NCBI GenBank assembly: GCA_024542985.1
Contig: JAMXCX010000009.1
Location: 1 to 43,112, forward strand
Length of the DNA stretch: 43,112 nt
Source: Candidatus Omnitrophota bacterium
GTDB taxonomy: Bacteria > Omnitrophota > Gorgyraeia > Duberdicusellales > 4484-171
Direction: 5' to 3'
Both the position numbers and the translations under genes were made by a program. Under the pieces are notes generated by a model. The model saw only the letters and a list, made by a program, of their open reading frames with translations. It ran no database searches and was not told the origin of the DNA. Shown piece by piece: positions 19,646-42,084 of this stretch; the stretch's first letter is position 1; every line of letters begins with the position of its first letter.

Positions 19646-20575
19646 TTAAGACTTTCTTTTATCCGTTATGTATTTGCTTTCAGGGAATTTTTTGGCTAAC
19701 GTTTTCATTTCTGCGCCTAGAGAATTTATTTGGGCGGTATGAGTAAAGTGTTTATCTAGGCTGCTAATTATGCCGATGGAAATAGTAAGGAACTCAAATT
19801 TATATATTTGGCCGTCACGGCCTTTTGTTTCTATATACCCTTTTATTTTATCACTTTTTTCAAAAAAATTTGGTGCGGCTGCATCAAAATCGTTAATTAT
19901 TTTTTTGGCAATATTTTCTGCATTATCAGGTAGGGTTATGATAACAAAATCGTCTCCGCCGACATGCCCTATAAAATCATGGATCGTTCCTCCTTTTTGA
20001 ATAGAGTCAATAAGTATATGCGCTGTTTTTTTTATGATGCTATCTCCTTTTTGGAAACCATAATAATCATTTAGCGCTTTAAAATTATCGATATCAATAT
20101 AAAGCATAGCAAAGTCAGACTTATTAGAAATTTTCTCTTCTAGCTCTTTAGCAATTGATACATTACCTGGTAAGCGAGTTAAAGGATTGGCGTCTAAGTT
20201 GGCGCTGGAACGGCGTATAAGCATTCTTACTCGGGCAACTAATTCTTTAGGGTCAAACGGTTTTAGCATATAGTCATCAGCCCCGGCCTCAAGGCCAGCC
20301 ACTTTGTCTTGTATTTCACCTTTTCCGGTGAGCATGAGTATAGGGGTATTTGAAAGAAGAGCGTCTTTCCTTATTATTCTGCATATTTCTGGTCCGGTTA
20401 AGTCAGGGAGCAAGTAGTCTAAAACTAAAAGGTTGGGGCATTTAGATTTTAAAGTCTCTAAGGCTTCATTACCCGTAGAAGCTTTCTCTAGCTCAAATTC
20501 ATCCATAAGGGTAGCCTCTAAAAGGTCTAAAATATCAGGGTCATCATCAACAACTAAAACTTTTAATTTATCCAT
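19646..20575 (-). CDS. Response regulator with REC and GGDEF-type (GGDDF) domain
   Basis: VLVVDDDPDI...LDYLLPDLTG...LKPFDPKE (REC); DIDNFKALNDYYGFQKGD and GHVGGDDFVII. Confidence 0.93.
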   Translation of the reverse strand: MDKLKVLVVDDDPDILDLLEATLMDEFELEKASTGNEALETLKSKCPNLLVLDYLLPDLTGPEICRIIRKDALLSNTPILMLTGKGEIQDKVAGLEAGADDYMLKPFDPKELVARVRMLIRRSSANLDANPLTRLPGNVSIAKELEEKISNKSDFAMLYIDIDNFKALNDYYGFQKGDSIIKKTAHILIDSIQKGGTIHDFIGHVGGDDFVIITLPDNAENIAKKIINDFDAAAPNFFEKSDKIKGYIETKGRDGQIYKFEFLTISIGIISSLDKHFTHTAQINSLGAEMKTLAKKFPESKYITDKRKS

Positions 20576-22049
20576 TTTTTACCACTTTCAAGGTGAAAAA
20601 AAAGGTAGTACCTTTTCCAAATTCAGATTCGACCCATATTTTTTCATTATGAGTATTGACGATCCTTTTTACCAAAGAGAGGCCAAGGCCGCTTCCTTTT
20701 TCTTTAAGGGTATCAGGGTTGTTCACTCTGTAGAATTCTTGAAAGAGTTTTTCTAAGTCATCTTTTTTTATGCCGTAACCTGTGTCTGAGACAGAAATAA
20801 TAGCTTCATTGCCGTTCTGCTCACATTTGATTGTAATTTTGCCGCCTTTAGGCGTAAATTTTATAGCGTTATTTATAAGGTTGATTAGAACTCTCTCAAT
20901 CAGATTTTTGTCCATGTATAGATTTAATCCTTTGGGAGCATTAAAGTTTAAAACCAATTCCTTAGCTTTTATTTGAGGTGTAAGGAAATCAGCTACGTCT
21001 TCAATTAGCTTTGCAATTTCACAAGGGGCTATTTTTACCTCTGTCTTACCTGATTCAATGCGGGAGATATCTAAAAGAGTATTTACTATGTCCATAAGTT
21101 TATTGACATTTTCATCAATCCTTAGCAGTCTTTTTTTTGCCTCTTCAGATAATTTACCAAACTTATCATCTACAAGCAGAGAAGAAAATCCTTTTACAGA
21201 TGTCAAGGGAGTTCGCAGCTCATGGGATACACTGGAGATAAAGTCTGATTTTGCTTTGCTTATAGTTTCAATTGCTCTTAAGCTTTTTACGAGTTCATTG
21301 GTCCTCTCTTTAATTCTTCTTTCTAGGTCGTCTTTTGAGTGATAAAGGTCTTCGAATAATTTAATATTATCCAGGCACTGATTAAGATACATACATATAA
21401 TTAAAAAAATTTCTTCATCCGACTTTTGAATTTCTGCAGAAAGTGTAGGATTAGATACCATAAATATGCTGTATATGCGTTCCGATGCTTTTATGGGGGA
21501 AATGAGTAAATCTTTAATTTGAAGATCGCAAGAAAGGCGTCTGTAAGTTTCTGATTTTTGAGACAATAACTGCGTTTGCGTCAGCACCTCTTTTTTGTAC
21601 TTCAATATATTTTTTATTATATTTATTTCATTGGGCTTAAAACCAATATTAACTTTTGGTTCTAAATTATCGAAACTCAGGAGTAACCCTTTTTTGAATC
21701 CTAAGTCATTTATAAGTTTTGCATCGATTTGTGTAAAAAGTTTTTCTGTATCAAGAATATGGACAGATGAAGTAATAAGATTTTTTATCAGGGTTAATTT
21801 ATTAAGTTTATCTTCTATTTCTTGTTGGTATAGATTTAATTCCATATCGCTTTTAATGATTAATTTTGCCTGTTGATCAAGATCCTGTATTGTCTTATCA
21901 AGATGATTCAGTTCTTTCCTTAAAACAGAGATAGCCTGCATTTTTTCTTTTAGGTAAAAGGAAAGAAGTACTATTATGGAAAAAAATACAATAACTATGA
22001 TAATAAGAGGATTTATGCCTGAAACGGCGTCAAGTATATCTACTGCCAT
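20568..22049 (-). CDS. Membrane sensor histidine kinase (TM, coiled coil, GAF-like, HisKA, HATPase)
   Basis: SHELRTPLTSVKGF H-box; NLINNAIKFTPKGG; DTGYGI; GSGLGLSLVKRIV; N-terminal TM. Confidence 0.94.
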   Translation of the reverse strand: MAVDILDAVSGINPLIIIVIVFFSIIVLLSFYLKEKMQAISVLRKELNHLDKTIQDLDQQAKLIIKSDMELNLYQQEIEDKLNKLTLIKNLITSSVHILDTEKLFTQIDAKLINDLGFKKGLLLSFDNLEPKVNIGFKPNEINIIKNILKYKKEVLTQTQLLSQKSETYRRLSCDLQIKDLLISPIKASERIYSIFMVSNPTLSAEIQKSDEEIFLIICMYLNQCLDNIKLFEDLYHSKDDLERRIKERTNELVKSLRAIETISKAKSDFISSVSHELRTPLTSVKGFSSLLVDDKFGKLSEEAKKRLLRIDENVNKLMDIVNTLLDISRIESGKTEVKIAPCEIAKLIEDVADFLTPQIKAKELVLNFNAPKGLNLYMDKNLIERVLINLINNAIKFTPKGGKITIKCEQNGNEAIISVSDTGYGIKKDDLEKLFQEFYRVNNPDTLKEKGSGLGLSLVKRIVNTHNEKIWVESEFGKGTTFFFTLKVVKNG

Positions 22050-23167
22050 AATGTTATTATAGTATTAACTGTTTCTAGGCTTATATTTTTGTATTCCTGG
22101 CTTGAATAAAAAGCGTAGTCTGAATATAGCCCTATTATTTTGAATTTATCGCCCAAGGACCGCTTTATTGCTGATATTTCTTCCGTAAAAGATTTTTTTA
22201 GTATTTTTTTTCGCGTCAAAGAGTTTACAATGAAAACTAATCCTTGGTTATTTTTTTTTATCGGAGCCAGTTTATTTTCCAGTTCGTTTAGCAGCAGGCT
22301 CGAGTCCATAAACATAATATACCCAGGTGTGTTTTCTCTTATCTCCCCCAGACATCTTAAAGAGCCATCTTGCAGGCACTCGAGGACATTGATGATATGC
22401 ATTTGACCGTTATATTTTATTCCTAAGGGATAAAAAGAGAAAAGATTATTTTTTAAAAAGCTGTCAAATTTTTCTTCCAAGTAATGCCTATAAATATTTA
22501 CTGCCGGCTGGCCATCGATTTCTGTGATTAAACCTCTGTCGGCCGAAGCTTTAGATATAGTAAAAGATTTACCTAAAGGCACAAAGTTTTCCAATTTTAA
22601 GGATTGTATTTCTAGGCCTTTTATTATAACATTGATTAGGCCTTCATCACCGGCATTATTTATAATTTGAGAATTATGGCGAGAATATTTTTTTACATAG
22701 CCGGCGCCTATAAGATTAAAACTTTTTCCTAAAGAGAATTTAACCCCTTTTAAATAGGGATAAGGATTAATGCCAGGTGACATGAATGAAAGAAGGCAAA
22801 ATTCAGATCTCTTTAGTTCTTTGAGTGAAGAGCGCAGCAAAGTTTCAATTTCTTGAGATTCACCGGTTTTTAAAAATGTTTCCTTTAATTCCACAGAAGC
22901 CTTATTGATACAGCAAGCGATAATTCCTTTAGAGATGACTTTTTCTTCAAAGATTAGGAAGGGCGCCCCTACGCCTAAAATTTTCTGAGGCTTTAAGGTA
23001 AGATTTATGGTTTTTAGAATAGCCGAAGGGTTATAATGCGGAGTGAATAAAACAATAAGATTACCTATGTTTTTGGGAAACATTGATTTTATTTTTAAGG
23101 AAACATCCTTGATTGCTTCTTCCTGCTTTTTCTCACTAAGGGCTATAGCAAATTCTTCGTTTTTCAT
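22040..23167 (-). CDS. FIST N/C domain sensory protein
   Basis: Overall FIST layout: N-terminal domain with GVGAPFL, C-terminal YLEEKFD...FYPLGIKYNGQ...CLGEIRENTPGYIM; overlaps histidine kinase gene by 10 nt. Confidence 0.8.
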   Translation of the reverse strand: MKNEEFAIALSEKKQEEAIKDVSLKIKSMFPKNIGNLIVLFTPHYNPSAILKTINLTLKPQKILGVGAPFLIFEEKVISKGIIACCINKASVELKETFLKTGESQEIETLLRSSLKELKRSEFCLLSFMSPGINPYPYLKGVKFSLGKSFNLIGAGYVKKYSRHNSQIINNAGDEGLINVIIKGLEIQSLKLENFVPLGKSFTISKASADRGLITEIDGQPAVNIYRHYLEEKFDSFLKNNLFSFYPLGIKYNGQMHIINVLECLQDGSLRCLGEIRENTPGYIMFMDSSLLLNELENKLAPIKKNNQGLVFIVNSLTRKKILKKSFTEEISAIKRSLGDKFKIIGLYSDYAFYSSQEYKNISLETVNTIITLWQ

Positions 23168-39365: not shown

Positions 39366-39656
39366 ATGGTAGTTTCCCGCAAAATAAAAGTAGGCAAAAG
39401 ACATATCCCAGCATTCCTAATCAATCTTAGCACCAAAAATTTAATTATATTTCGTGGAACCAAAGGCTATGTTATGTGCGGTTACTTGAATTTAGGAGCT
39501 GCTAATAAATTTAATGATGTAGCAATAAAAATCACCGGTGTTTCCAGCATAAAAGAAGCTTTAGGGGGCAAAGTGCATTCTCTTAGCCGAGCTGCTAAGA
39601 GATTAGGTATTTATAAGAACCAATCCATAAGAGATGTTTTAAAGGTTATCGTTTAG
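39366..39656 (+). CDS. DUF1805 (YunC-like) protein
   Basis: NLIIFRGTKGYVMCGYLNLGAANKFNDVAIKITGVSSIKEALGGKV. Confidence 0.75.
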   Translation: MVVSRKIKVGKRHIPAFLINLSTKNLIIFRGTKGYVMCGYLNLGAANKFNDVAIKITGVSSIKEALGGKVHSLSRAAKRLGIYKNQSIRDVLKVIV

Positions 39657-39658
39657 TC

Positions 39659-40033
39659 ATGAAGAAGCAAAGAAGAAAGAATTTTGAGATAAGGTTTTGC
39701 GAGGCTATTTTGGAAAAACGCCCTAATTGTGTAGGTGTATTAATTTCTTTAGGCGATACTTATACTAAAGGAGGCTTTTATCAGGAAGGGTTAGGTGTCG
39801 ATAGGCGTTTAGCCATTTTGCGCCCCGAAGATCCTGTCATACGGTATAATTTGGCTTGCAGCCTTTCACTGATAGGTCAATCTCAAGAAGCCTTAGAGGA
39901 ATTAAAAAAAGCAATTTTGCTAGGTTATGATGAATATTCCTATATTTTAAGAGATTCCGATTTAGAAAATGTGAGAAAACTTGCATCTTTCAAAATATTT
40001 TTTAATAAACTAAGAAACTTAAAAAAAGAATAA
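39659..40033 (+). CDS. TPR-repeat protein
   Basis: NCVGVLISLGDTYTKGGFYQEGLGVDRRLAILRPEDPVIRYNLACSLSLIGQSQEALEELKKAI. Confidence 0.85.
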   Translation: MKKQRRKNFEIRFCEAILEKRPNCVGVLISLGDTYTKGGFYQEGLGVDRRLAILRPEDPVIRYNLACSLSLIGQSQEALEELKKAILLGYDEYSYILRDSDLENVRKLASFKIFFNKLRNLKKE

Positions 40034-40068: not shown

Positions 40069-42084
40069 ATGGTTGATCGAAGAAAATATATAAGAATAAC
40101 TACTGTTTTACCAATTGAATTTTTTGTTATTGATGAGGCCGGTAAAAAAGTTACTCCCTGGCTGCAAGGATTTACCCAGGATATAAGTAGGGGCGGCTTG
40201 TGTATTCAAGTAAACGATTTATGGCGGGGCTTTTGGGATAGATTTAGCTGGCGGGGAGCCCAGCTTGTTTTAAGAATAAATTTTCCTTTTCATAAACAAG
40301 CGGTATCTTTGAAAGTAAAAGTTTCTTGGATGAGTGAATACAAAATCAAAGACTTTACACAATACAAAATAGGAGTAGAGTTTTTAGAATCTGACAAAAA
40401 AACAATTGAAGCTCTTTTTAAATATGCAATAATCAAAAAAAGTGCTCCTTTTATCTTAGGTGGAGTCATTGCTATACTACTTATTTTTTCCTCAACTTTA
40501 TTATTACGCAACATTTCTCTCACTAAAGGAAGTAGGCAGTTAGTAAAAGATTATGTGGGTATTTTGGAGAAAGAAGAAAGTCTAGGAAATATTCTGGCGG
40601 AAGAACGCAAAGGCAAAGTATTTTTTGAAAAGCGGCACCAAGAGCTCAAAGAGATGATAACTATTTTAAAGAGAGAATTATCCCAGAAAATGGAAAGATA
40701 TGAAGCTTTATTGCTTAAAAGAAAAGGCAACTTTTTTTCTGAAGAAATGGATTCTCTTCAGAAAAGGATTTCTTTGCTTGAAACTGAGTTGACAGTTCTG
40801 AAGCGAGAAAGTGAATTTTTAAAGCTCAAAGGAAATGAAAAGAGAAAAGTGGAAGAAGAAATTGGAAAGAAAGTAATGCATATAGAAAAGGAAAGATTGC
40901 AATCTGTCCGTAAAATCGTAAAAGGTATGTATAGTTGGATTAAAAACCGCCAGGATCTTTCTACTGGCTTGGTGTTAAGCTACGAAGGAGACCGTACCCT
41001 AGAGAGGGTATACTTTACCTATGACCAAGCCATAGCTGCCATATTATTTTTGGCAATAGGAGACAAGGATAAGGCTGAGATGATATTAGACTTTTATTTA
41101 AAAAAGGCAAGCAGAGGCGAAGAAATTTATAATGCTTACTATGACCAGCGCCATGTATTTGAATATGTGATTCATAGCGGCCCTAATGCCTGGATAGGCA
41201 TAGCTGCTCTTTGTTATGCCAAAGAGACCGGGAGCCGGAAATATTTAGCAATTGCCGAGAAAGTGGGAGATTTTCTATTTAAAATGATGGCCAAAGGTGA
41301 AGGAGTAAAGGGAGGGCCTAAAGATGAATGGTATTCTACAGAACATAATCTAGATTCTTTTTCTTTTTTCAAGTTATTTTATGAGGTAACTAAAAAAAGA
41401 GAGTATTTAGACGCTGCGGATAAAATCAAGAAATGGATTGCTCAGTATACCTATACCAATTACGGGCCGCCGGTAAGCCGAGGCAAGGGTGATTCAACCA
41501 TAGCCACAGATACTTATGCTTGGTCAATAGCTGCCTTTGGTCCGGCAGCACTTTATTCTTTAAAGATGAATCCAGAAACAATTTTAGAATTTGCTATAGA
41601 AAATTGCGAAGTAGAGGTAGAATTTGTACGTAACGGAGGAGCAATCACGATAAAAGGGTTTGATTTTGCTAAAGTAAAAAATAGCCCTAGAGGAGGGGTA
41701 ATAAGCACTGAGTGGACTTCCCAGATGATTTTAGCTTTAGAAATTATGGCCAGCTATTTTAAAAATAAAAACTTAAACAAATCAGAAGATTATGCCCAAA
41801 GGGCTTTTCTTTATTTTAATGAATTACAAAAAATGATTATAACGTCTCTTTCTAGGGCTGGTAGAGAAGACCCTTGCCTTCCTTATGCTTCTAAGTTCTC
41901 CGTAGATACCGGACATGGCTGGAGAACTTCCCAGGGGAGCAAGACAGGTTCTTTGTCAGCAACAGCATATTTTTTACTCGCCTATTACGGATATAATCCC
42001 TTAAAAGCAAAATTTCTAGACGTCCATCTGAAAAATATTTACGATAAAAAGTTGAATAAGCTAAAAGTATCTTTGAGCCAATAA
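40069..42084 (+). CDS. PilZ domain - TM helix - coiled coil - six-hairpin glycosidase-like (alpha/alpha toroid) protein
   Basis: PilZ RRKYIR...DISRGGL; TM PFILGGVIAILLIFSSTLLL; heptad-rich coiled coil; helical domain with VYFTYDQAIAAILFLAIGD, HSGPNAWIGIAALCYAKETG, EWYSTEHNLDSFSFF. Confidence 0.8.
   Translation: MVDRRKYIRITTVLPIEFFVIDEAGKKVTPWLQGFTQDISRGGLCIQVNDLWRGFWDRFSWRGAQLVLRINFPFHKQAVSLKVKVSWMSEYKIKDFTQYKIGVEFLESDKKTIEALFKYAIIKKSAPFILGGVIAILLIFSSTLLLRNISLTKGSRQLVKDYVGILEKEESLGNILAEERKGKVFFEKRHQELKEMITILKRELSQKMERYEALLLKRKGNFFSEEMDSLQKRISLLETELTVLKRESEFLKLKGNEKRKVEEEIGKKVMHIEKERLQSVRKIVKGMYSWIKNRQDLSTGLVLSYEGDRTLERVYFTYDQAIAAILFLAIGDKDKAEMILDFYLKKASRGEEIYNAYYDQRHVFEYVIHSGPNAWIGIAALCYAKETGSRKYLAIAEKVGDFLFKMMAKGEGVKGGPKDEWYSTEHNLDSFSFFKLFYEVTKKREYLDAADKIKKWIAQYTYTNYGPPVSRGKGDSTIATDTYAWSIAAFGPAALYSLKMNPETILEFAIENCEVEVEFVRNGGAITIKGFDFAKVKNSPRGGVISTEWTSQMILALEIMASYFKNKNLNKSEDYAQRAFLYFNELQKMIITSLSRAGREDPCLPYASKFSVDTGHGWRTSQGSKTGSLSATAYFLLAYYGYNPLKAKFLDVHLKNIYDKKLNKLKVSLSQ

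Follow-up and report, generated by a model that had tools for sequence, protein, structure and literature searches.

Computational analysis of domains, motifs, membrane segments, fold, conservation and gene linkage revealed that an open reading frame at positions 40069..42084 on the + strand of the window (the whole stretch of 43,112 nucleotides analysed here) begins with ATG and encodes a 671-amino-acid protein in which a PilZ domain, a single transmembrane helix, a probable helical hairpin and a predicted (alpha/alpha)6 barrel are joined in this order. The parts are of known kinds, and what is new is that a single polypeptide combines them and that this arrangement, along with a linked second envelope enzyme, is kept in much of the phylum Omnitrophota.

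The reading we favor, a c-di-GMP-controlled periplasmic glycan enzyme, was ranked above all four alternatives weighed below, and its full statement as an Alg44-like inside-out c-di-GMP receptor with a periplasmic glycan-active barrel is considered moderately probable. The N-terminal PilZ domain would lie in the cytoplasm and be followed by one membrane helix, a periplasmic hairpin and the (alpha/alpha)6 barrel in the periplasm, where the barrel would act as a glycan-processing glycoside hydrolase using D319, E425, D481 and E548. Occupation of the RxxxR/(D/N)x(S/G)xxG pocket by c-di-GMP would alter the packing or oligomeric state of the PilZ domain, and this change, passed on through the membrane helix and the hairpin, would alter the access, position or partner binding of the barrel, with control running from inside to outside. 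In most relatives, the protein would join a secreted TPR-DUF3857-transglutaminase-like protein in a unit that remodels envelope or surface material. A putative relay of this kind from c-di-GMP to a periplasmic glycan activity fits everything found. A stricter version is put forward tentatively and with some doubt; it describes a one-polypeptide switch in which PilZ would directly gate a barrel that cleaves glycans in the periplasm and belongs to a glycosidase family not yet described, with a transglutaminase-like partner in many relatives, as an envelope-remodelling unit across much of the Omnitrophota.

To our knowledge, c-di-GMP control of surface polysaccharides is exerted on synthases or through separate subunits. 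If the favored reading is true, the covalent link between a receptor and a glycan-active domain on the far side of the membrane would provide direct switching from inside to outside, the cell may switch a surface activity from inside, and the protein would be the first concrete c-di-GMP output for the Omnitrophota; its parts are separately expressible and testable. The Omnitrophota are a little-cultured phylum for which predatory or symbiotic lifestyles have been proposed (PMC10066038), and the main text of that paper makes no mention of PilZ or c-di-GMP. In the literature library searched, no paper was found on a PilZ-glycosidase fusion, on DUF3857 transglutaminases or on c-di-GMP in the Omnitrophota.

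The gene is single-copy in the source genome, and PilZ (residues 3-119) is the only domain of its product that exceeded the Pfam cut-off. The full-length AlphaFold2 model, calculated with an alignment of 29 orthologs as input, reached a pLDDT of 87 and consists of a beta-barrel at residues 8-105, a helix at 110-216 which includes the transmembrane segment, a break at 217-224, a second helix at 225-293, and paired helices thereafter. Promoter and terminator scans returned nothing usable, with promoter-like sites at chance level. The search for the same architecture and its neighbors across genomes, as called for in the original prediction, was carried out by scanning genome contigs with a barrel profile, which gave 201 relatives; the best 80 of these were kept for locus analysis, and all 80 come from Omnitrophota metagenome-assembled genomes (MAGs) or from MAGs labelled just "bacterium". 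Each complete copy among the 80 loci has the identical domain order. PilZ was found in frame with the barrel in 75 of the 80, and the five apparent barrel orthologs without PilZ were discarded as such, being cut by contig ends or, at locus L120, frameshifted so that PilZ is read in the adjacent frame. Among 384 Omnitrophota genomes, 183 matched the barrel protein at 1e-20, about 157 of them strongly according to a hand count from the match table. The one-chain arrangement that had been predicted is present in the reading frame and kept across much of the phylum, and conservation this wide rules out a chance product. Conservation is uneven along the chain, with a mean pairwise identity over 83 orthologs of 55% for the barrel in comparison to 37% for PilZ and 22-23% for the transmembrane helix and hairpin. 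At one place (L067:5125-8040, on a contig shared with L024) the PilZ-barrel frame is joined to an M20-type peptidase and the end of the barrel is missing; a true fusion was rejected in favor of a probable deletion or assembly join, the peptidase being a usual downstream gene elsewhere, and L024 and L067 were excluded from the alignments.

The only strong hydrophobic segment of the protein lies at residues 128-146 (40450..40506; this and all further parts of the protein are on the + strand), with a 19-residue mean hydropathy of 2.59 in comparison to 1.26 for the runner-up. The topology analysis thus agrees with the single transmembrane segment that had been placed at about residues 130-150, and such a segment is conserved in 80 of 80 orthologs. 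Lysine and arginine residues were more numerous on the PilZ (N-terminal) side of the membrane (4.2 vs 3.1), a slight positive-inside bias which points to an N-in orientation. Three barrel relatives (L129, L130 and L131) have a signal-peptide-like N-terminus, in agreement with an exported barrel, and we infer that the barrel is placed in the periplasm. Past the membrane, a first long helix at residues 150-216 (40516..40716), part of the model helix 110-216, leads to the helix break at 217-224 assigned by DSSP on the model (40717..40740), a probable hairpin tip, and the second long helix at 225-293 (40741..40947) runs into the barrel. Length differences of the linker among orthologs fall mainly around residues 210-229, at the predicted helix break, which is consistent with two antiparallel helices and a hairpin tip that differs in length. 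In place of the coiled coil of about 130 residues proposed originally, the model has two long helices with a break between them, and this region resembles a hairpin more than a simple rod. The two helices in the model probably fold back as a hairpin, which would set the barrel near the membrane, so that a relay simply through a coiled coil may be too simple a picture.

The gene neighborhood supplies a second candidate effector. A gene at 39659..40033 (+ strand), ending 35 bases upstream of the PilZ-barrel frame, encodes a small TPR protein without signal peptide (TPR_17, NF047558) that is probably on the same transcript, and a homologue was found upstream in 33 loci. Co-transcription with this adjacent TPR gene, as suggested beforehand, is plausible because of the short same-strand gap and this recurrence. 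The next gene upstream in the gene order, at 39366..39656 (+ strand), encodes a DUF1805 protein (PF08827), and in close relatives a DUF3857-transglutaminase gene sits between the DUF1805 and TPR genes. Clustering of neighbor genes showed that a secreted TPR-DUF3857-transglutaminase-like protein of about 790 residues is encoded upstream in 53 loci (e.g. L045:2344-4737), including 41 of the 51 loci having more than 4.5 kb of upstream sequence, and that its Cys-His-Asp triad shows no variation. This gene is carried by 102 of the 384 genomes, 83 of which also carry the PilZ-barrel gene (odds ratio 12.3, p 1e-22, a significance overstated by kinship among the genomes), and the two genes lie no more than 7 kb apart in 77 of 82 located pairs. 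This link is a new finding beyond the original prediction. In the source genome, a MAG of 88% completeness, no DUF3857-transglutaminase match was found and the usual DUF1805-TPR site is empty too; it is one of 74 PilZ-barrel genomes in which a close transglutaminase homologue was not detected, these MAGs being incomplete. The source genome also holds a frame of about 8943 residues (L132, G000 contig C20 around 22141-22335) with a weak transglutaminase-like match. In 11 loci (e.g. L124:4008-5156), the gene immediately 5' of the PilZ-barrel gene encodes an M48 (Ste24-like) membrane protease. Candidate phylum-wide links to Era, aminotransferase and DUF1805 genes were set aside, as they are found mainly in the source's own family and near relatives.

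The linkage calls for comparison with LapD-LapG, in which an inner-membrane c-di-GMP receptor has a periplasmic output (PMC3032545). A likeness may be seen in the transglutaminase-like enzyme linked to most PilZ-barrel relatives, which was not found in the source genome. The sensor of LapD is a degenerate EAL domain whereas the sensor here is PilZ, and LapD controls a separate protease, whereas here a single chain holds both sensor and barrel, with a DUF3857 protein as the putative partner. A recruitment mechanism like that of LapD can be formulated, in which the barrel would be mainly a binding platform and c-di-GMP would set the capture or release of the transglutaminase-like protein as the true effector. 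The tight genomic linkage and the intact triad described above speak for such a mechanism, and the control of the periplasmic cysteine protease LapG by LapD via c-di-GMP provides the precedent (PMC3032545, PMC5231407). We nevertheless regard it as rather unlikely, given that in 74 PilZ-barrel genomes (incomplete as MAGs are), the source among them, no close transglutaminase homologue was detected, that the barrel is conserved far above the need of a pure binding platform, and that DUF3857 proteins and LapG belong to separate families.

BcsZ and AlgL handle or trim the exported polymer for cellulose and alginate, respectively, and BcsZ is an (alpha/alpha)6 glycanase, a separate protein in the BcsA pathway. 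BcsA itself carries PilZ control (PMC8461298). PilZ control is coupled to an (alpha/alpha)6 glycanase within one pathway there, with the difference that PilZ is part of the synthase and the glycanase a protein of its own, whereas in the PilZ-barrel protein PilZ and the glycosidase-like barrel share one chain. Alg44, the Pseudomonas alginate co-polymerase, has a cytoplasmic N-terminal PilZ domain with RxxxR, one transmembrane helix and a C-terminal periplasmic domain (PMC8461298), and the order PilZ, single transmembrane helix and C-terminal domain is the same in the Omnitrophota protein, for which the periplasmic side of the barrel would be the corresponding location. The periplasmic part of Alg44 is, however, a membrane-fusion (HlyD-like) domain rather than an (alpha/alpha)6 barrel, and Alg44 is encoded in the alginate operon whereas the PilZ-barrel gene has other neighbors and no synthase alongside. 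A second alternative, that of an Alg44-like co-polymerase in which PilZ would activate a glycosyltransferase encoded elsewhere and the barrel would handle or trim the exported polymer, draws on this shared order of parts (PMC8461298), on the resemblance of the hairpin past the membrane to a membrane-fusion-type hairpin, and on a distant barrel relative sharing a reading frame with glycosyltransferase-like segments. It is judged distinctly improbable, in view of the commonest recurring neighbors in the locus set, which include no glycosyltransferase, and of the two large PilZ frames inspected in the source genome, which are kinase-like and PilB-like, neither of them a synthase. No synthase or glycan operon adjoins the PilZ-barrel gene.

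The favored hydrolase reading concerns the barrel, residues 284-650 (40918..42018). Modelled alone from 69 sequences, the C-terminal domain gave a pLDDT of 89.8 and a pTM of 0.91, with six inner and six outer helices and with the barrel beginning near residue 284. Foldseek matched this model to MmpH (7qsj), the glycosidase 5z3c, YihS, cellobiose 2-epimerases and GH76 (E 1e-8 to 1e-6, TM about 0.6-0.7, 10-14% identity), and almost every one of the 50 best PDB matches is a glycosidase or a sugar epimerase. The predicted six-hairpin-glycosidase-like C-terminal half was thus borne out, the matches being to (alpha/alpha)6 glycosidases and AGE-type epimerases. The barrel fold is shared with the GH76 mannanases, MmpH and 5z3c at this low identity and with no curated family match, and the resemblance of the modelled barrel to solved structures is one of fold, not of family. 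Membership in GH76 was rejected on a weak and partial Pfam similarity (E 0.03, 14.2 bits in comparison to a cut-off of 25.9) and on the alignment of the catalytic DD pair to a non-acidic HSG region, and filing under GH127 or GH88 was rejected on weak Pfam scores below the cut-off. Since the barrel has no named family match in the libraries searched, Pfam and NCBIfam, it may represent a new carbohydrate-active enzyme family.

Four candidate catalytic acids stand out within the barrel: D319 in YDQ (41023..41025), E425 in TEHNLD (41341..41343), D481 in ATDTYAW (41509..41511) and E548 in EWT (41710..41712). All four are invariant in the orthologs (83 for D319) and survive in barrel relatives at 22-35% identity, D319 in 10 of 11 members of the wider superfamily and the other three in 11 of 11. 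The motifs FTYDQA, GPNAWIG and DEWYSTEHNLDSF, which had been singled out beforehand, are present and hold family-invariant residues. The active site of (alpha/alpha)6 barrels lies at the face formed by the N-ends of the inner helices, and the invariant acids lie at these N-ends. With inner and outer helices assigned by us from their alternation in the model, 18 of the 36 first-six positions of inner helices are invariant in comparison to 9 of 88 for outer helices (p=4e-6); of the 154 loop positions that precede the inner-helix N-ends, 42 are invariant. A relative at L129:942-4000 combines a signal peptide, the barrel and CBM11 and is encoded directly 5' of a GH94 phosphorylase gene, a pair which may indicate what class of substrate the barrel family acts on; the relative at L128 lies within a giant frame holding the glycosyltransferase-like segments mentioned above. 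Hydrolase is provisionally the preferred assignment over epimerase because the four acids persist in diverged relatives and because of these CBM11/GH94 and glycosyltransferase-like contexts. Barrel copies inside huge frames (1485 to >6600 residues as seen) were also noted at L126, L127, L128 and L130 in other Omnitrophota.

Some (alpha/alpha)6 barrels isomerise free sugars, and the AGE and YihS enzymes, which have the barrel fold in common with the present protein, act on free sugars. The barrel being an AGE-type isomerase or epimerase, or a lyase, instead of a hydrolase was considered still less probable than the co-polymerase. In its favor, YihS and the cellobiose 2-epimerases rank with the best fold matches, the orthologs keep H426 and H616 almost without exception, and the C5-epim_C profile gave a weak match in 10 of 29 family members; the wider relatives, however, keep the acids and lose H616, so that the paired catalytic histidines of AGE and YihS are not conserved across the wider superfamily, and the exported relatives have CBM11 and adjoin GH94.

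The input side of the favored mechanism is the PilZ domain at residues 3-120 (40075..40428), predicted to be cytoplasmic, which matched PF07238 with E=3.9e-07 and 30.8 bits in comparison to a cut-off of 22.5 and forms the beta-barrel of the model. Both claimed c-di-GMP motifs align in register to 5vx6, the PilZ structure of YpfA from B. subtilis. The RxxxR motif in RRKYIR (R5 and R9; 40081..40095) is kept in 79 of 79 orthologs for R5 and 78 of 79 for R9, and in the DxSxxG motif DISRGG (residues 38-43; 40180..40197) the D/N at position 38 is kept in 77 of 78 and G43 in 78 of 78. The motif serine, present in DISRGG, is less constant in the family, position 40 being Ser in 36, Gly in 38 and Ala in 4 of the 78 orthologs. 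The other ligand residues of the pocket are kept in nearly all orthologs, and c-di-GMP would likely be bound by this domain. Loss of c-di-GMP sensing, leaving PilZ a mere anchor or scaffold for a periplasmic enzyme, is the least probable of the four alternatives, since the replacement of the serine by Gly/Ala in 42 of 78 orthologs is outweighed by both arginines, the D/N and the glycine being almost invariant while the transmembrane helix and hairpin drift. The original prediction thus withstood the three tests that it had named as refuting: the C-terminal half matches an (alpha/alpha)6 fold of glycosidase type, the membrane helix is predicted and conserved, and the PilZ ligand residues are kept.

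The source organism probably makes c-di-GMP, because its genome contains 17 PilZ matches and 7 GGDEF matches, four of the latter with intact GGEEF/GGDEF cyclase motifs. On the same contig as the PilZ-barrel gene, three neighboring genes on the - strand of the window (19646-23167) encode a FIST-domain protein, a histidine kinase and a response regulator whose GGDEF domain is partial (GGDDF), possibly forming a c-di-GMP input module. The PilB-like type IV pilus ATPase of the source genome (L034) was also observed to have a C-terminal PilZ domain.
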